From a virus: DNA of 24,039 bases. Location: the IMG/VR virus record IMGVR_UViG_3300044701_000609, positions 1 to 24,039 of that record, one strand, 5' to 3'. Position 1 is the stretch's first letter; every line of letters starts with the position of its first letter. Below the pieces are notes generated by a model. That model made no database searches and was not told where the DNA came from. It saw nothing but the letters and a program-made list of their open reading frames with translations. Position numbers and translations under genes: made by a program. Shown here one piece after another: positions 804 to 19,351 of the stretch.

Positions 804-3116
804 ATGGCCGATAGAATCAAGGCAATACAAGAAAAAAGCGCCGTGGACTCAGAGCGCCCCTATCCGAATGAACATGCTGCTCGGCTGACCGATCCCGAGC
901 AATATGATTTGTTACGTCGAGAGAACGATGCGGGCGGCTCAGGCATTGATTTCATCTACGGGATCAAGGAAGGCGTGAGCGAAATCCAAGCCATCCGGTT
1001 CCGTAGCTCGCAGTTCACGCCTGCTGAGGCGCGCGACTGGTTGGCTGAGCATGATTTCAGCCCGATTGAGTTTGAGGAAGCCACGGGCGATGGTGAAGCC
1101 GATCGTGCGGCACCAAACGAACTGAGCGAGGGTGACTTCGTGCAGTGGGATTCGAGCGGCGGCACTGCTCGCGGGCGGATCGAGCATGTGATGCGTGAAG
1201 GCACGCTGGGTGTGCCCGACACTGAGTTCAGCATTGAAGCTACGGCTGAGGATCCTGCTGCGCTGATCCGCATCTACCGCGAAGGTGAGGATGGCTGGGA
1301 GGCGACCGAAACGCTGGTCGGCCATAAGTTCTCGACGCTCACCAAGATCGCGGCACTGCGGAGCCTGACGGGCAAATATCAGCGTGCAGAGCTGACCAGC
1401 TTTGATGAGGTGGAGGAGCGGACCTTCGAGTTCCCCTTTAGCTCGGAGTATCCGGTGGCTCGGTATTTCGGCAATGAGATTTTGAGCCACGAAAGCAAGG
1501 CGGCTGATCTCAGTCGCCTGAACGATGGCGCTCCGCTGTTGTTCAACCACAACCCTGATCGCGTGATCGGTGTTGTGGAGCGCGCGTATATCGACGGCAA
1601 TAAGCGCCGAGGATATGCGCGTGTGCGGTTTAGCCGCAACTCATTCGCTCAAGAGATCTTGAGTGATGTGAAGGATGGCGTTCTCAGGAATGTCTCCTTC
1701 GGCTACTCCATCGACAAAATGGAGGAGCGCGGCAGTGGCGACTTTGTTGCTACTGCTTGGTCTCCTTACGAGATCAGCGTTGTCTCGGTGCCAGCTGACC
1801 CTGGCGTCGGGATTGGCCGATCGCTTGAGGATGACAATGCTGCTTCGGCAGCACCAACACCCGATCCCATTCCTTCAATGGAAAACACCACCCCCGATCT
1901 GGCAGTGGTGCGGGCCGAAGCCGCTAAGGCTGAGCGTTCCCGCATTGCTGGCATTTCCGCGCTGTGCGATAAGCACGGCATGGCCGACCTCGGCCACCAG
2001 CTGATCGAATCTGGTCGTTCTATCGACGAGGCTCGCGCTGCTGTGCTCGACAAACTCGACATTCAACAGGAGCCCGTGAACATGAGCGCCGCTGACATCG
2101 GCCTTACCGCACAGGAGAGCCGCAGCTTCTCCTTCCTGCGTGCCATCAACTATCTTTCGAACCCGACCGATCGTGCTGCCCGTGAGGCTGCTGCGTTCGA
2201 GATCGAGGCTTCCGAAGCTGCTGCCTCCAAGCTCGGCCGTCAGTCCCGTGGCATCACCGTGCCCCAGGAAGTGCTGCGTCGCGACCTGAACGTTGGCACC
2301 GCTTCTGCCGGCGGCAACCTGGTTGCTACCGAGCTGGATGCTGGTTCGTTCATCGACCTGCTCCGTAACGCTTCCGCCCTGGATCAAGCTGGCGCCACCG
2401 TGCTGACCGGCCTGACCGGCAACGTTGCGATCCCCCGCCAGTCCGGCGCTGCTACCGCTTACTGGGTGGCCGAGTCCGGTTCTCCCACCGAGTCCCAGCA
2501 GACCGTCGACCAAGTGAGCCTGGTGCCCCGCACCTGTGCTGCTTACACCGACTTCAGCAGGCGCCTGATGATCCAGTCCTCCATCGACGTGGAGAACATG
2601 GTACGCAACGACTTGGCGCGCGTGATCGCTCTCAAGATCGACGCCGCTGGTCTGTACGGCACTGGCGCCAGCAACGAGCCTCTCGGCCTGAAGAACACCA
2701 CCGGCATCGGCACTGTTGACTTCGCCGCTGCTGCTCCTACCTTCGCTGAGGTGGTGGATTTGGAGAGCGACGTGGCTACTGCCAACGCTCTGCTTGGCTC
2801 CCCGGTGTATCTGATGAACGCTGCCATGCGCGGCAACCTGAAGACCACCAAGAAAGATGCAGGCTCCGGCATCTTCATCATGGAGAACGGTGAAGTCAAC
2901 GGCTACACCGGCGTGCTCTCCAACCAAGTGGCTTCCGGCGATCTGTGGTTCGGCAACTTCGCTGATCTGATCATCGGCTACTTCTCCGGCCTCGACATCA
3001 TGGTTGACCCCTACACCCACAGCACCTCCGGTACTGTGCGCGTGGTGGCCCTCCAAGACGTTGATATTGCCGTCCGCCACGCCGAATCCTTCAGCCGCGG
3101 CAACGATTCCCTCTGA
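804..3116 (+). CDS. Fused DUF2945 (TUDOR-like) - HK97-type prohead protease - major capsid protein
   Basis: This is a 770-residue polyprotein. Residues 15-95 resemble a conserved N-terminal segment of phage protease-region proteins (GIDFIYGI, QAIRF, EARDWLAEH). Residues 107-185 match a DUF2945/HVA1 TUDOR-like domain (GDFVQW, ATETLVGHKFSTL). Residues 198-340 are a U35/S78 prohead protease, with His249 in FNHNPDRVIG and Ser298 in NVSFGYS as the likely catalytic pair. Residues 360-425 are helical and charged, like the scaffolding delta domain of HK97 capsid proteins. The rest is an HK97-fold major capsid protein. The protease normally matures the capsid by removing the delta domain. Codon use becomes strongly biased (Ser TCC, Arg CGT, Ala GCT) from about base 1880, fitting a highly expressed capsid. 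Internal starts at 1881 and 2082 could give separate capsid protein. Confidence 0.88.
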   Translation: MADRIKAIQEKSAVDSERPYPNEHAARLTDPEQYDLLRRENDAGGSGIDFIYGIKEGVSEIQAIRFRSSQFTPAEARDWLAEHDFSPIEFEEATGDGEADRAAPNELSEGDFVQWDSSGGTARGRIEHVMREGTLGVPDTEFSIEATAEDPAALIRIYREGEDGWEATETLVGHKFSTLTKIAALRSLTGKYQRAELTSFDEVEERTFEFPFSSEYPVARYFGNEILSHESKAADLSRLNDGAPLLFNHNPDRVIGVVERAYIDGNKRRGYARVRFSRNSFAQEILSDVKDGVLRNVSFGYSIDKMEERGSGDFVATAWSPYEISVVSVPADPGVGIGRSLEDDNAASAAPTPDPIPSMENTTPDLAVVRAEAAKAERSRIAGISALCDKHGMADLGHQLIESGRSIDEARAAVLDKLDIQQEPVNMSAADIGLTAQESRSFSFLRAINYLSNPTDRAAREAAAFEIEASEAAASKLGRQSRGITVPQEVLRRDLNVGTASAGGNLVATELDAGSFIDLLRNASALDQAGATVLTGLTGNVAIPRQSGAATAYWVAESGSPTESQQTVDQVSLVPRTCAAYTDFSRRLMIQSSIDVENMVRNDLARVIALKIDAAGLYGTGASNEPLGLKNTTGIGTVDFAAAAPTFAEVVDLESDVATANALLGSPVYLMNAAMRGNLKTTKKDAGSGIFIMENGEVNGYTGVLSNQVASGDLWFGNFADLIIGYFSGLDIMVDPYTHSTSGTVRVVALQDVDIAVRHAESFSRGNDSL
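2068..2084 (+). promoter_or_regulatory. Candidate internal ribosome-binding site and start for free capsid protein
   Basis: Inside the fusion gene, AGGAG (2068-2072) lies nine bases before an in-frame ATG (2082), which is good Shine-Dalgarno spacing. Initiation here would give a 344-residue capsid protein lacking the protease and most of the delta-like segment. The match may be chance, because the same bases encode Q-E-P in the polyprotein. Confidence 0.4.
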
Positions 3117-3118
3117 TC

Positions 3119-3325
3119 ATGTTGATCAAGGTCCTAAGGCAGACCATGCTGGCAGGCCAGGTTGTTCGGATCGGGGATGTCCTTGAGGCATCCCCCTCCG
3201 ACGCCAAGTTTCTGATCGGCATTGGCAAAGCTGTTGTGGCTGCCGCTGCGGTGGCCGAGGTGGTTGAGGAAATCACTCAACCTGCACCCAAACCAACTAC
3301 CCCCCGACGGAGGGCTAAATCATGA
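3119..3325 (+). CDS. Small head-region protein of unknown function
   Basis: The product is 68 residues. It starts two bases after the capsid stop (TGA-tc-ATG), with no clear Shine-Dalgarno, so it is probably translated by coupling. The first 40 residues follow a pattern common to small proteins beside phage capsid genes: a short basic start, a turn with hydrophobic strands (VVRIGDVLEA), then DAKFLIGIGKA. The end is Ala/Val-rich, then Pro-rich and basic (PRRRAKS). Its stop overlaps the next start (ATGA at 3322). The position suggests a head-completion or capsid-associated role, but I do not recognise a named family. Confidence 0.7.
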   Translation: MLIKVLRQTMLAGQVVRIGDVLEASPSDAKFLIGIGKAVVAAAAVAEVVEEITQPAPKPTTPRRRAKS

Positions 3326-3702
3326 CCATCCACAATCTTGGTTCTAAGACCACGGTTCTCGGCCTGCTCCGCAACGACGTTGTGACCGCTACCGGGACCG
3401 GCTCTGCCATCGATCTGCAGGGCTACGAAGGCGACATTGCTGTGCTGCTGGACGCCGAAGCTGGCGGTGCTGGCGTCACCTATGCCGTGAAGCTGACCGA
3501 ATCCGACACCTCCGGCGGTTCCTACACCGACGTAACTGGTGGCGGCTTCACCACCACCACCGCAAACACTGCTTCGCTGCAGAAGATCTTCGTCAACGTC
3601 ACCTCGCTGAAGCGCTACGTCAAGGTCTCTGTGACCGTGGCTGGTGGCACCGGCGCTGGTGCTGTTGCGGTGATCGGCCTGGCTTCCGCCAAGTACGGCT
3701 GA
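3322..3702 (+). CDS. Probable capsid decoration/cement protein
   Basis: The product is 126 residues, rich in Thr, Gly, Ala and Val, with predicted beta strands and no transmembrane segment. GGAGGG (3309-3314) seven bases before the ATG is among the strongest ribosome-binding sites in the window, and codon use is as strongly biased as in the capsid gene. Both point to very high expression. A small beta-rich, highly expressed protein just after the capsid gene is most simply a decoration protein that coats the head. Function is inferred from position, size and expression signals, not from a recognised motif. Its TGA is followed by tc-ATG of the next gene, the same junction as after the capsid gene. 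Confidence 0.6.
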   Translation: MTIHNLGSKTTVLGLLRNDVVTATGTGSAIDLQGYEGDIAVLLDAEAGGAGVTYAVKLTESDTSGGSYTDVTGGGFTTTTANTASLQKIFVNVTSLKRYVKVSVTVAGGTGAGAVAVIGLASAKYG

Positions 3703-3704
3703 TC

Positions 3705-3983
3705 ATGGCGATCACTGAGGATCTGGATGCGTTCTTGGCGGATTTTGGCGTTAGCTGCACAGCTGGCGCTACTACCGCCAACGGAATCCTGGACATGCCA
3801 AGCCAGGTGATCAGCGATGGGATGGTGCTCACCACCGACTACACGCTGACAGCCAGAACCTCGAAGTTTGGGAGCCTCATCCGCGGCGATTCAATCACTG
3901 TGGATGGGGCTGCCTACACCGTCCGAGAGACGATGTTGATTGACGATGGCAAGTTCGTTCAGCTCGGGATACAGAAGACATGA
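3705..3983 (+). CDS. Head-tail connector / head completion protein (lambda FII-like)
   Basis: The product is 92 residues. The pattern MAITEDLDAFLADFGV, then a strand-rich middle (LTTDYTLTARTSKFG, RGDSITVDGAAYTVRE) and a C-terminal DDGKFVQLGIQK, matches small head-tail joining proteins of the lambda gpFII type, which bind the portal/adaptor and receive the tail. Length and position, after capsid and decoration genes and before the tail terminator, agree. It overlaps the next gene by ATGA at 3980. I am fairly sure of the class, less of the exact family. Confidence 0.7.
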   Translation: MAITEDLDAFLADFGVSCTAGATTANGILDMPSQVISDGMVLTTDYTLTARTSKFGSLIRGDSITVDGAAYTVRETMLIDDGKFVQLGIQKT

Positions 3984-4618
3984 GCGGTCCCTTCAAGGTC
4001 AACACACGGAGCCAGTGGGCAGCGCAGAATCCTGTGCTGATGGCGGGAGAGCCTGGCGTTGAAAGCGAGACCGAGAACCTGAAGATCGGTGACGGCAGGA
4101 CAGCGTGGAATACGCTGCCGTATTTCAGCAGTCCAGCGAATTGGGGTTCGTTCTGGGATACAACGTCACAGACCGCTACGGCTAACACGCCGGCGACAAT
4201 CCTGCTGCGTAAGAACGACCTAGACAACCGTGGCATCAAGGTGATCTCGGATAGCCGGATCACGGTTGACCATCCGGGGATTTATAGCTTTACGTTCTCG
4301 ATCCAATTCAGCAATACCGACACGCAGATCCACGACATCAACGTGTGGTTGCGCAAGAACGACAGCGGCGCAAGTGGCGACGTGCTTGACAGCGATAGTA
4401 AGTTCAGCATCATCGCTAGCCACGGCGGCACTGCTGGCAATGTGATCGGCACGGTGAACTTCATCCTCAAGTTGGCGGCGGCGGACTACATCGAGCTGAT
4501 CTGGGCGACTAGCAATGCTGCCGCCTACATCCACGCTGAGGCAGCGGCCACCAGCCCGTTCGCGCATCCGGGGATTCCGGGCATTATTTGCACAGTGGCG
4601 CAGGTGGCTTCAGCATGA
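3980..4618 (+). CDS. Fibre-like protein: Mtd-type N-terminal module plus C1q-like jelly-roll domain
   Basis: The product is 212 residues. Residues 13-48 (WAAQNPVLMAGEPGVESET, then KIGDGRTAWNTLPY) are a short module common at the N-terminus of phage tail fibres and tropism proteins. Residues 53-212 look like a C1q/TNF-type jelly roll (PGIYSFTFSIQF, INVWLRKN, DYIELIW, IHAEAAAT, IICTVAQV). The same N-terminal module opens the large fibre at 12179. This adhesin-like protein sits among head-completion genes, between connector and tail terminator, an unusual place for a tail fibre. A head fibre or capsid-displayed adhesin is a reasonable inference. It is translationally coupled on both sides by ATGA overlaps. 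Confidence 0.7.
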   Translation: MSGPFKVNTRSQWAAQNPVLMAGEPGVESETENLKIGDGRTAWNTLPYFSSPANWGSFWDTTSQTATANTPATILLRKNDLDNRGIKVISDSRITVDHPGIYSFTFSIQFSNTDTQIHDINVWLRKNDSGASGDVLDSDSKFSIIASHGGTAGNVIGTVNFILKLAAADYIELIWATSNAAAYIHAEAAATSPFAHPGIPGIICTVAQVASA

Positions 4619-11685: not shown

Positions 11686-12182
11686 CATATCCGGCACTGA
11701 TCCCATCAACGCGCGTCTTCAGCCCTGGCAACACGCCACAGGCGCGGCAGACATCACTGAGCGGGATGAGCGATGGCTTCAGGCGCGGCAACCGGCGCAT
11801 CGGGCAGATGCTGCAACTGAGTTACCTGAACCTGGTCGAGGCTGACTTTCTTCTGCTCAAAGCGCATTACATCGACCGGCAAGGCACCTACGACATCTTC
11901 TTCCTGTCGACCGAGACATGGAACGGCATGACGACACCGCCGGTGCCGCTGCTGTCGGACTATGCATGGAAATACAGTGCACCGCTGGTGGTCAGCCATG
12001 CATCTTGCGACCGCTACAACGTCGAGGTGCAGCTTGAGACGCAGCCCATTGATCTGAGTGATCTGATCATTGATGGTGGACTGGCTGGCGCAACACCAGT
12101 CAGGGACTATATTGTCGATGGTGGCCTTGCCGCAGCTACGCCAGCTCGCACCTATGTGATCAGCCCTGGAGGCGCCGCATGA
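11682..12182 (+). CDS. Minor tail protein, second tandem paralogue, with C-terminal repeat
   Basis: The product is 166 residues. Residues 1-120 align with the preceding protein. The C-terminal 40 residues are extra and contain two related units, IIDGGLAGATPVRD (129-142) and YIVDGGLAAATPART (143-157). It overlaps both neighbours by ATGA. The added repeat tail could be the connector to the fibre encoded next. Role is inferred from position only. Confidence 0.6.
   Translation: MTYPALIPSTRVFSPGNTPQARQTSLSGMSDGFRRGNRRIGQMLQLSYLNLVEADFLLLKAHYIDRQGTYDIFFLSTETWNGMTTPPVPLLSDYAWKYSAPLVVSHASCDRYNVEVQLETQPIDLSDLIIDGGLAGATPVRDYIVDGGLAAATPARTYVISPGGAA
12065..12153 (+). repeat. Degenerate tandem repeat encoding DGGLA-x-ATP units
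   Basis: Two in-frame copies of a unit of about 45 bases encode IIDGGLAGATPVRD and YIVDGGLAAATPART at the C-terminus of the 11682-12182 protein. Third-position differences show an older duplication than the one in the portal gene. Confidence 0.65.
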
Positions 12183-13753
12183 GCATCACCCTCTCAGCAC
12201 TGCAGAAGCAGCGGCGTGATACGGCTGCAAACTGGACGACGCAGAACCCCACGCTGCTGGCAGGTGAGCTTGGCTACGAGTCTGATACCGGCTACTGGAA
12301 GGTCGGCGATGGCACCACCGCATGGGCTTCGCTTGCATATATCCCCGGCTCCAAGCTCAGCGCCTATCCGCTAGTCAACGTTGATATCGCCAGCAACGCT
12401 GAGATCGCTGTCAGCAAGCTGGCTGATGGCAGCGCACGGCAGCTGCTGCAGACCGATGCAGCCGGCACTGGCGTTGAGTGGGCAAGCAACATCGATGTGC
12501 CCGGCACACTGGATGTAACCGGCGCCGCGACGTTCGACAACAACGTTGTCATCCAGGGTGATCTGACGGTCAACGGTACCGAAACGATCATCAACACTCA
12601 GACCTTGGATGTTGAAGACAAGAACATCGTCATCGGCAAGGTCACCACGCCATCGGATGTGACGGCTGATGGTGGCGGCATCACGCTGAAGGGCACCACC
12701 GATAAGACCATCAACTGGGTAGATGCCACTGATGCATGGACGTTCAGCGAGCACGTTGACCTCGCAAGCGGGAAGGCGTATTACATCAACGGCACGCAGG
12801 TGCTCAGCAGCAGCACCCTGGGCAGTGGCGTCACGGGTAGCAGCCTGACCAGTGTTGGCACGATCGCAACGGGCGTCTGGAATGGCACCACGATCGGCAC
12901 GGGCTATGGCGGCACGGGCATTGCAGGCAGTTACACAGACGGTCAGCTCCTGATCGGCAAGACCGATGGCACGCTGGCCAAGGCAACGCTCACAGCCGGA
13001 AGCAACGTCAGCATCACCAACGGCGACGGCACCATCAGCATTGCCAGCACGGATACGACCTACACCGCAGGCGATGGCCTGGATTTGGTTGGCACCACAT
13101 TCTCCGCTGACCTGAAGGCCAATGGCGGCCTGGTGATCGAATCAACGGAGCTGGCGGTTGACTTGGGCGCTAGCAGCATTACCGGCACGCTTGGTGTTGT
13201 AGATGGCGGCACCGGCCAAACCACCTACACCGATGGTCAGCTGCTGATCGGCAACAGCACCGGCAACACGCTTGCCAAATCGACGCTGACAGCTGGCACT
13301 GGCATCAGCATCACCAACGGATCGGGCAGCATCACGATCGCTTCCACGGTTAGCGGTGGCCTGCCGACTACAGGTGGCACGCTGACTGGTGATCTGCTGA
13401 TGGATAACCAGACCGATGTGCGGTTTGGCGAAGCTACGGCGAATGGCAGCAACTGGGTGGCGTTTCAAGGTGCTGCAAGCATCGCGGCCAATGTCACATG
13501 GACGCTTCCCAACGCTGACGCCACGGTTTCAGGCCATGCACTTAAGAGTGACGGCGCAGGCAACCTTAGCTGGGGTACTGCAGGCGGGGCAACTGGCGGA
13601 GGCACTGATGATGTGTTCTACGAGAACGCTCAAACTGTCACCACCAATTACACTTTGACTACCAACAAAAACGCCATGAGCGCCGGGCCGATCACAATCA
13701 ATAGCGGTGTGACGGTGACCATTCCGTCAGGCGCCTCTTGGGTGGTGGTGTAA
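12179..13753 (+). CDS. Modular tail fibre protein
   Basis: The product is 524 residues. Residues 17-54 carry the short N-terminal module WTTQNPTLLAGELGYESDT then KVGDGTTAWASLAY, also present in the protein at 3980. A middle region (NNVVIQGDLTVNGTETIIN, LDVEDKNIVIG) is typical of trimeric phage fibres. Two 48-residue repeats follow, each starting GGTG and including YTDGQLLIG and ISITNG or VSITNG. The end (TDDVFYENAQTVTTNYTL then ITINSGVTVTIPSG) is a terminal beta domain found in many cyanophage-type fibres. It probably trimerises and contacts the host surface. It overlaps the upstream gene by ATGA. Confidence 0.8.
   Translation: MSITLSALQKQRRDTAANWTTQNPTLLAGELGYESDTGYWKVGDGTTAWASLAYIPGSKLSAYPLVNVDIASNAEIAVSKLADGSARQLLQTDAAGTGVEWASNIDVPGTLDVTGAATFDNNVVIQGDLTVNGTETIINTQTLDVEDKNIVIGKVTTPSDVTADGGGITLKGTTDKTINWVDATDAWTFSEHVDLASGKAYYINGTQVLSSSTLGSGVTGSSLTSVGTIATGVWNGTTIGTGYGGTGIAGSYTDGQLLIGKTDGTLAKATLTAGSNVSITNGDGTISIASTDTTYTAGDGLDLVGTTFSADLKANGGLVIESTELAVDLGASSITGTLGVVDGGTGQTTYTDGQLLIGNSTGNTLAKSTLTAGTGISITNGSGSITIASTVSGGLPTTGGTLTGDLLMDNQTDVRFGEATANGSNWVAFQGAASIAANVTWTLPNADATVSGHALKSDGAGNLSWGTAGGATGGGTDDVFYENAQTVTTNYTLTTNKNAMSAGPITINSGVTVTIPSGASWVVV
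12908..13348 (+). repeat. Two 144-bp in-frame repeats in the fibre gene
   Basis: Copies at 12908-13051 and 13205-13348 encode 48 residues each: GGTG, then YTDGQLLIG, LAKATLTAG or LAKSTLTAG, SITNG and SIAST or TIAST. They are similar rather than identical at DNA level and are separated by a 51-residue spacer. Confidence 0.8.
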
Positions 13754-17753: not shown

Positions 17754-18836
17754 ATGGCCAACACGGCACCGATCACGCTGCAGACTCTGTTTCGGTATTA
17801 CAAGGGGCTTCCCCACCAGGCCGCGGCGATCAGCCTGCTAGAACAAGACATCGCTGCCAATGGCTACCAGCAGGCGATGCGGCGTGATCGGCCGTGGTTC
17901 GAGGCTTGGTCGCAGGATGGCAAGCAGGTCGATCTATCGGCTGGCATCAACCTGATCAAGCAATTCGAGGGTGTGCATCTCTCCGCCTACCCCGATCCGC
18001 TTAGCGGTGGCGATCCATGGACGATCGGCTACGGCACCACCCGCTATAGCGGTGGCGTGCCGGTGAAGCGCGGCGACAAGATCACCATGATCGAGGCCGA
18101 CATGATGCTGCGGCTTGAGGTAGATCGCATCGCTGACAAGCTGGCCAGCACCATCCCGCACTGGAAGGTGATGGACGACAACCAGCGGTCGGCGTTGGTC
18201 AGCTTCGCCTACAACCTCGGTGCTGGCTTCTACGGCACACCCGGATTTGAGACGATCAGCAAGGTGCTGCGCGAGCAGGCATGGGACAAGGTGCCCGCCG
18301 CCATGGAGCTGTACCGCAACCCTGGCACCAACGTTGAAGCCGGCCTGCTGCGGCGCCGTAAGGCAGAAGGGCAGCTATGGGGCGACCATCGCCCGAAGAT
18401 GCAGCAGGAGCCCGCCAGGCTGACGCCAGACTCATCGTTCAGCGCGCGCATCACACCGCACATCCGCCTGGGTGAGTTTGCGCTTGATCAGGAGGCGCGG
18501 CGCTTCGTCCATCAGTATCAGGTGAACACTGCAGCGGAGCTGGCGGCGTTCCTTGAGCGTGTGCGGCAACGCTTCGGCGGCAAGAGCATCATCATCACCT
18601 CGGGCTTCAGGCCGGCTGCCATCAACGCATCAGTCGGTGGTGCCACCAACAGCGAGCACCTCTACTCAGCGCCTGGCGTTGGTGCGGTCGATTTCGTGGT
18701 CGATGGTGCCGACATGAAAGCTGTTGAGAAATGGTGCGATGAAAACTGGCCGCACAGCCTCGGCTACGCTGCACCGGCCTTTACTCATCTCGGTCGCCGC
18801 GCTGATGGCAAGCGGCGCCGCTGGGATTACGCCTGA
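17754..18836 (+). CDS. Two-domain endolysin: GH24 lysozyme plus M15-type peptidase
   Basis: The product is 360 residues. Residues 1-58 are an N-terminal helical part. Residues 60-212 are a GH24 lysozyme with Glu72 in QFEGVHLSAYPDP, an Asp (81 or 87) and Thr95 in GDPWTIGYGTT, plus NQRSALVSFAYNLGAG, the T4-type layout for cutting the MurNAc-GlcNAc backbone. Residues 235-360 match peptidase M15 (D,D- or L,D-carboxypeptidase type), with ITSGFRPAAINASVGG, His302 in NSEHLY, Asp313 in GAVDFVV and His345 in FTHLG as probable zinc ligands. One protein would therefore attack both glycan and peptide bonds of peptidoglycan. No signal peptide is visible, so it would depend on a holin. Confidence 0.88.
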   Translation: MANTAPITLQTLFRYYKGLPHQAAAISLLEQDIAANGYQQAMRRDRPWFEAWSQDGKQVDLSAGINLIKQFEGVHLSAYPDPLSGGDPWTIGYGTTRYSGGVPVKRGDKITMIEADMMLRLEVDRIADKLASTIPHWKVMDDNQRSALVSFAYNLGAGFYGTPGFETISKVLREQAWDKVPAAMELYRNPGTNVEAGLLRRRKAEGQLWGDHRPKMQQEPARLTPDSSFSARITPHIRLGEFALDQEARRFVHQYQVNTAAELAAFLERVRQRFGGKSIIITSGFRPAAINASVGGATNSEHLYSAPGVGAVDFVVDGADMKAVEKWCDENWPHSLGYAAPAFTHLGRRADGKRRRWDYA

Positions 18837-19351
18837 TGATTTTGCCCGATCATGAGATCCGCCGGTTGTGCGAGCAGCACGCCATGGTGGTGCCGTTCGA
18901 TCACGAGCTGCTGAACCCTGCCAGCCTTGACCTGACTTTGGGGGATCGCATCATGATTGAGGTGCCGGATCGCCCTGAGCTGCAGATTGTCGGCATTAAC
19001 GGCCACACCGCTGAAACCCCCTACTGGCTGCAACCGGGGGAGTTTTGCCTGGCCGAAACTCGCCAAATTTTTTCGATGCCAGATCATGTGTGCGGCTTGT
19101 TCTACCTGAAATCCAGTCGTGCGCGAGAGGGTTACGAGCACAGCCACGCCGGATTTGCCGATTGTGGCTGGTACGGCTCACGGCTCACGCTGGAGCTAAG
19201 CAATGCTCGACGGATGCACCCCATCCCCCTCTATCCCGACATGAAGATCGGTCAGATGATCTTTCACATCATGGCTGGACTGCCTGATCGCACCTATGCC
19301 GCCACAGGCCGCTACAACGCCGATCTCGGCGTCACGGGCAGCAAGGGCTAG
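18836..19351 (+). CDS. dcd: dCTP deaminase (Dcd)
   Basis: The product is 171 residues, slightly shorter than E. coli Dcd (193). Motifs: LNPASLDLTLGD (26-37), KSSRAREG (92-99), AGFADCGWYGSRLTLELSN (105-123) with Glu120 in the place of the catalytic Glu, KIGQMIF (137-143) and GRYN (158-161). It turns dCTP into dUTP, the precursor for thymidylate, and so feeds phage DNA synthesis. I cannot separate it from a bifunctional dCTP deaminase/dUTPase by eye. The start overlaps the endolysin stop by one base (TGATG). Its stop TAG lies in the palindrome gctagc shared with the stop of the opposing gene. Confidence 0.88.
   Translation: MILPDHEIRRLCEQHAMVVPFDHELLNPASLDLTLGDRIMIEVPDRPELQIVGINGHTAETPYWLQPGEFCLAETRQIFSMPDHVCGLFYLKSSRAREGYEHSHAGFADCGWYGSRLTLELSNARRMHPIPLYPDMKIGQMIFHIMAGLPDRTYAATGRYNADLGVTGSKG

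Follow-up and report, generated by a model that had tools for sequence, protein, structure and literature searches.

How a phage that encodes its prohead protease and its major capsid protein in one reading frame could make many shell subunits and little protease is the question raised by the gene described here. Our analysis suggests that the gene is very probably read in two ways, giving a full-length chain from position 804 and an abundant delta-capsid protein from a nested in-frame start, ATG 1878.

Domain organization of the fused gene

The gene lies in a 24,039-nt stretch of DNA (referred to as the window), a 24 kb IMG/VR virus record (IMGVR_UViG_3300044701_000609) from a freshwater cyanobacterial virus whose nearest annotated relatives are the Synechococcus siphoviruses S-CBS3, S-CBS1 and S-LBS1. 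The initial annotation had read positions 804-3116 as a single open reading frame (ORF) joining a DUF2945-like domain, a U35-type protease, a delta-like segment and a capsid protein, and this layout was confirmed (Table 1). The Peptidase_S78 profile matches with E = 2e-9 (38.2 bits against a cut-off of 21), and of the two protease residues already named, Ser298 is invariant and His249 is at least 90% conserved in an alignment of 29 sequences. By profile and conserved His/Ser, the segment is a predicted prohead protease of the HK97 type (S78/U35). The capsid part is an HK97-fold major capsid protein: the Phage_capsid profile (PF05065) matches residues 503-765 above its cut-off (E = 3e-45, 155 bits versus 24.2), and the best PDB match is the capsid of phage R4C (8gta, 40% identity, E = 1e-20), followed by HK97 entries. 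The fusion as a whole is spanned by phrog_617 (residues 196-768, E = 3e-172); the NCBIfam model for protease/capsid fusions, NF045541, reaches 185 of the 525 bits that its cut-off requires, with the match confined to residues 203-441. A second scaffold helix segment was found at residues 436-477, and the single long disordered linker of the chain, which contains Met359, separates the protease from the delta/scaffold helices. A BRX profile match fell below its cut-off and was taken as chance.

Table 1. Features of the fused gene and of the proposed nested gene, with positions in the window
Feature	Position	Strand	Evidence or remark
Fused gene: N-terminal modules, HK97-type (S78) prohead protease, linker, delta/scaffold, HK97-fold major capsid	804..3116	+	770 aa
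N-terminal module 'RPYPNEHAARL...', residues 20-91	861..1076	+	well folded in model; absent in some relatives
Hva1_TUDOR / DUF2945-like domain, residues 110-156	1131..1271	+	22.3 bits versus Pfam cut-off 24.1
Prohead serine protease, Peptidase_S78, residues 234-334	1503..1805	+	Pfam profile, conserved His/Ser
His249 (codon 1548) and Ser298 (codon 1695)	within 1503..1805	+	
Disordered linker, residues 331-363, with the proposed internal initiation region	1794..1892	+	AlphaFold pLDDT 32-39
Predicted RNA hairpin UGCUGC-UUCG-GCAGCA	1838..1853	+	24 nt upstream of internal ATG; compensatory changes in most cyanophage relatives
Unstructured pyrimidine-rich spacer without Shine-Dalgarno	1854..1877	+	
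Proposed internal start codon ATG (Met359) of nested delta-capsid	1878..1880	+	conservation, context, codon switch
Nested delta (scaffold)-capsid gene, proposed abundant product	1878..3116	+	412 aa; codon switch, start region
Delta/scaffold helices, residues 366-417	1899..2054	+	phrog_617 match, AlphaFold model
AGGAG and ATG 2082 (Met427), possible secondary start	2068..2084	+	limited to the window's clade
Segment equivalent to capsid chain modelled in mature vB_DshS-R4C, residues 503-770	2310..3113	+	structure comparison

To judge from the relatives, the N-terminus of the fused protein is modular. S-LBS1 and ep3 have neither N-terminal module, S-CBS3 lacks the TUDOR domain, and the first module is missing in some relatives. 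The initial annotation had found a DUF2945-like domain unusual in a capsid polyprotein; the candidate domain seen here, just below the Pfam cut-off, recurs in the family, with Hva1_TUDOR matching the homologous position of 12 relatives out of 29 examined (best E = 7.5e-13). The module at 804-1076 has no trusted Pfam match, and its presence is independent of TUDOR. In addition, many relatives are extended upstream by another ~100 aa in frame. An N-terminal extension that is fused in CRP-821 forms a separate overlapping ORF, also annotated as 'major capsid protein', in the Roseobacter phage CRP-823.

Among the other genes of the window, those at 3980-4618 and 12179-13753 have tail-fibre matches or matches to a major-tropism-determinant-type N-terminus, and the same region contains an annotated mtd gene in both S-CBS1 and S-CBS3. 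A dCTP deaminase-like protein is encoded at 18836-19351, directly after the endolysin gene.

A conserved start codon in the linker

Internal initiation had been suggested at 1881 or 2082. The codon at 1881 is GAA and not a start codon; the ATG occupies 1878-1880, and sequence comparison strongly supports internal initiation yielding additional delta-capsid, with the site at this ATG and not at 1881 or mainly at 2082. We collected 361 related ORFs, reduced to 86 representatives at 85% identity. All truly related ORFs long enough to judge are fused, and among relatives with full coverage we found no split homologue beginning at the equivalent Met; the separate capsid genes that were found (such as that of PG1) are too distant for their starts to be aligned. 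The linker has an ATG in 81 of the 86 fused representatives and a GTG in four of the other five, leaving a single representative (L303) with no start codon in the linker. In two of the cases with valine (L137 and L144), the GTG stands exactly at the aligned Met position. Some start codon in a linker of 30-80 residues is likely to occur by chance, so the argument depends on where the codon lies and on its context. In most cases it precedes the helix marker by 15-20 codons, or by 46-47 in the gamma group, and its distance to the helices is mostly fixed while the length and sequence of the linker vary.

The context of this codon was assessed with the linker start chosen by position and not by its Shine-Dalgarno (SD) sequence. 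For phages of the alpha type (Roseobacter/Rhodobacter-type), SD energies of -5 or lower were found at 92% of linker ATGs but at 17% of the remaining in-frame ATGs (p = 8.6e-13), and the linker start is likewise enriched for SD in gamma-type phages (p = 9.5e-5). VP882, phiHAP-1, R4C, B8b and a Helicobacter prophage also have an SD there. Cyanophages have none (median dG +0.4). The mRNA has a local minimum of structure at the linker start in all groups, and in the window ATG 1878 ranks among the 1.4% of the gene with the least structure.

Synonymous variation, measured in 9-codon windows across 67 unique close relatives, is lowest in the whole gene at codons 354-362, which straddle ATG 1878 (observed/expected 0.19), followed by codons 342-350 (0.25) and 361-369 (0.30). 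Initiation regions used as controls are also low, with 0.47 at the gene's own 5' end and 0.43 at the 3' end before the next gene. The same dip is present in a marine cyanophage clade (L297; 0.06 at the linker start) and is similar in L267, partial or weaker in the S-CBS3 and L248 clades, and replaced by little constraint at the linker start in the CRP-811 alpha clade. Another low window, at codons 527-535 (2382-2408; 0.36), lies inside the capsid domain. Taken from sequence comparison, the assignment of ATG 1878 as the internal start of a separately made delta-capsid is strongly supported.

Codon usage changes at the start of the delta-capsid part

The abrupt change in codon use that had been noticed near base 1880 is real and significant. 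In a change-point scan the likelihood ratio peaked at base 1914 with a value of 135, on a plateau extending from about 1878 to 1974, compared with a mean of 61 and a maximum of 92 in 60 synonymous shuffles, and the effective number of codons (ENC) is 47.6 before the switch and 34.0 after it. Codons that rise across the switch include Ser TCC (2 to 20), Thr ACC (7 to 21) and Ala GCC (5 to 19), while Arg CGG (8 to 0) and Asn AAT (5 to 0) disappear; the increase in Arg CGT, cited along with Ser TCC in the initial annotation, is small (6 to 9). A scoring model trained on sequence away from the boundary gives the window's clade -0.28 per codon over the ten codons that lead up to Met359 and +0.35 over the ten that follow, a change of sign. 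In the cyanophage group the mean likelihood-ratio profile of the representatives peaks at the linker start codon itself (offset 0); in the alpha and gamma groups the peak comes 10-30 codons later. In these three clades, which differ in codon preference, it lies at or just after the linker start, although the best change point of a single gene can fall far from it.

The only other tested gene of the window with capsid-like codons (LLR +0.25, ENC 30.3) is the 126-aa gene at 3322-3702, which belongs to phrog_5707, has weak similarity to the head cement protein Bbp16 and probably encodes a putative decoration protein. Its codon use fits selection on expression, with codon use following protein amount.

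A small predicted hairpin upstream of the proposed cyanophage start

Lacking an SD, the cyanophages have a GC hairpin of 4-6 bp located 19-31 nt upstream of the linker start. On an alignment built without structure, covariation of the stem is 0.222, against 0.071 +- 0.014 after shuffling (0 of 500) and at most 0.109 for slid versions, and four stem pairs have changes on both sides. The register is not kept in five of the 41 cyanophage sequences (the AERG clade). A search of Rfam gave no match in the window, nor at a relaxed threshold in 1750-2150, and among the matches listed there was no comparable C(UUCG)G element before other genes of the window phage.

The hairpin could be a mere by-product of the Ala-rich linker, as the pattern GCN GCN NNN GCN GCN is nearly self-complementary, and most single sequences are indeed non-significant against synonymous shuffles (p = 0.015-0.72). 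We consider this somewhat unlikely. The stem persists where the encoded residues change from AASAA to TASAV, AVTTA, AAETA or AAQPH, its free wobble pair is complementary in 36 of 41 sequences, the hairpin codons 342-350 rank second in the gene for low synonymous variation, and the pooled score against synonymous shuffles reaches z = 4.3, a value inflated by the kinship of the sequences. Our tentative proposal is that the small GC hairpin, an unstructured pyrimidine-rich spacer of 19-31 nt and ATGGAA may together form an SD-free internal initiation element that drives very strong capsid synthesis in cyanophages, with its strength setting the protease:capsid ratio.

Alternative explanations

The AGGAG that had been pointed out nine bases before ATG 2082 is present, and this ATG has the best SD among the in-frame ATGs of the gene (dG -7.0). 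It also occurs in all 67 unique close relatives, with CAGGAG or CAGGAA in nearly all. As the main internal start it is nevertheless highly improbable and was rejected on conservation, synonymous variation and codon usage: S-CBS3 and the marine cyanophages lack it, none of the proteobacterial phages has it, synonymous variation does not dip there (observed/expected 0.73-0.97), and it is preceded by 68 codons that are mostly capsid-like already. Its product would also be without the scaffold helices at residues 366-417. A role as an additional minor start is possible.

The gene might instead yield a single polyprotein, cut by its own protease and supplying protease and capsid at 1:1, with the codon switch reflecting accuracy selection in the capsid domain or a modular origin of the gene. 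Such a reading can draw on the capsid being the most conserved domain and on the presence of a protease, and proteolysis alone could account for an R4C capsid without its N-terminal part. It is very unlikely, though, since it leaves unexplained the conserved ATG/GTG, the SD outside cyanophages, the structure minimum and the placement of the strongest synonymous constraint in a disordered linker; moreover, the codon switch begins before the capsid domain, at the start of delta, and recurs at the same place in clades of different codon preference. An unlikely but less remote route is that the delta-capsid comes from its own mRNA, made from an internal promoter or by RNase processing with the hairpin shielding the new 5' end. 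A stable hairpin directly upstream of an initiation region would suit a processed end, and this route is compatible with an internal start, as the start codon at 1878 would be required anyway. No sigma-70-like promoter was found in 1500-2200 (phage promoters may differ), and the relatives with an SD-led start need no separate mRNA.

Proposed mechanism and comparison with known systems

The conserved start codon, the SD of relatives, the low structure, the synonymous constraint, the hairpin covariation and the codon switch are features of the sequences themselves, and the step from the conserved start codon to actual translation from ATG 1878 is strongly supported. Ribosomes starting at 804 would produce a scarce full-length protease-delta-capsid chain, while ribosomes initiating independently at ATG 1878, within the disordered linker that follows the protease, would give a delta-capsid like HK97 gp5. 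We infer that the latter would be far more abundant, so that most shell subunits would carry no protease, and that the few full-length chains would co-assemble through their own delta-capsid part and thereby bring the protease into the procapsid. The protease would then remove everything up to about residue 502. The internal start would be led by an SD in proteobacterial relatives, and in cyanophages it would lie SD-free in an unstructured pyrimidine-rich stretch behind the conserved hairpin.

In phage lambda, the protease gene C contains a downstream in-frame start that makes the scaffold product Nu3. The arrangement proposed here resembles it, and the feature that marks this type of nesting, an internal start codon that is conserved and has an initiation context, was found as far as sequences can tell; in lambda, however, the capsid protein E is encoded separately and gpC is an S49-type protease, whereas the nested product here would comprise scaffold and capsid. 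Like the gene of the window, HK97 gp4/gp5 combine an S78-type protease, a delta scaffold fused to the capsid N-terminus and an HK97-fold capsid, the scaffold being described as an N-terminal domain of the capsid protein (PMC10275583). HK97 encodes protease and delta-capsid in two genes, unlike the one ORF here with the gp5 equivalent apparently nested in it. Protease-capsid fusion as such is already known from phrog_617, NF045541 and the fused 'major capsid protein' genes annotated in many phages. Those of S-CBS1, S-CBS3, S-LBS1, ep3, phiHAP-1, VP882 and R4C share the domain order of the window gene and are annotated as a single protein, with no internal start in the records inspected. We found no description of an internal start in a protease-capsid fusion, or of the hairpin, in the open-licence literature.

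Data on virions of two relatives bear on the mature product. The R4C capsid structure (8gta) models 268 C-terminal residues, which align to residues 503-766 of the window protein; the words 'protease' and 'cleav' are absent from the paper describing it. The fused protein of B8b (685 aa) was detected in virion proteomics with 937 spectra and a coverage of 42.7% (PMC4294664); this would fit virions that contain mainly the capsid part but does not prove it. In cyanobacterial genes without SD, weak structure around the start has been described as compensating (PMC6847405, PMC5397173). ATG 1878 shares the weak structure and differs in lying inside a coding sequence with a conserved hairpin upstream.

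The capsid gene of a large and widespread group of phages, including cyanophages, roseophages and ep3-, VP882- and phiHAP-1-like phages, thus appears to be an unannotated nested gene, and codon-usage breakpoints within ORFs can expose such hidden genes. If true, this arrangement would solve the protease:capsid stoichiometry of fused head genes, giving many shell subunits and little protease, and would offer a testable route by which protease enters the procapsid. In its cyanophage form it would provide a naturally occurring, strong start that is independent of an SD and includes a small RNA element, and could bear on the debate over SD-free initiation in cyanobacteria.
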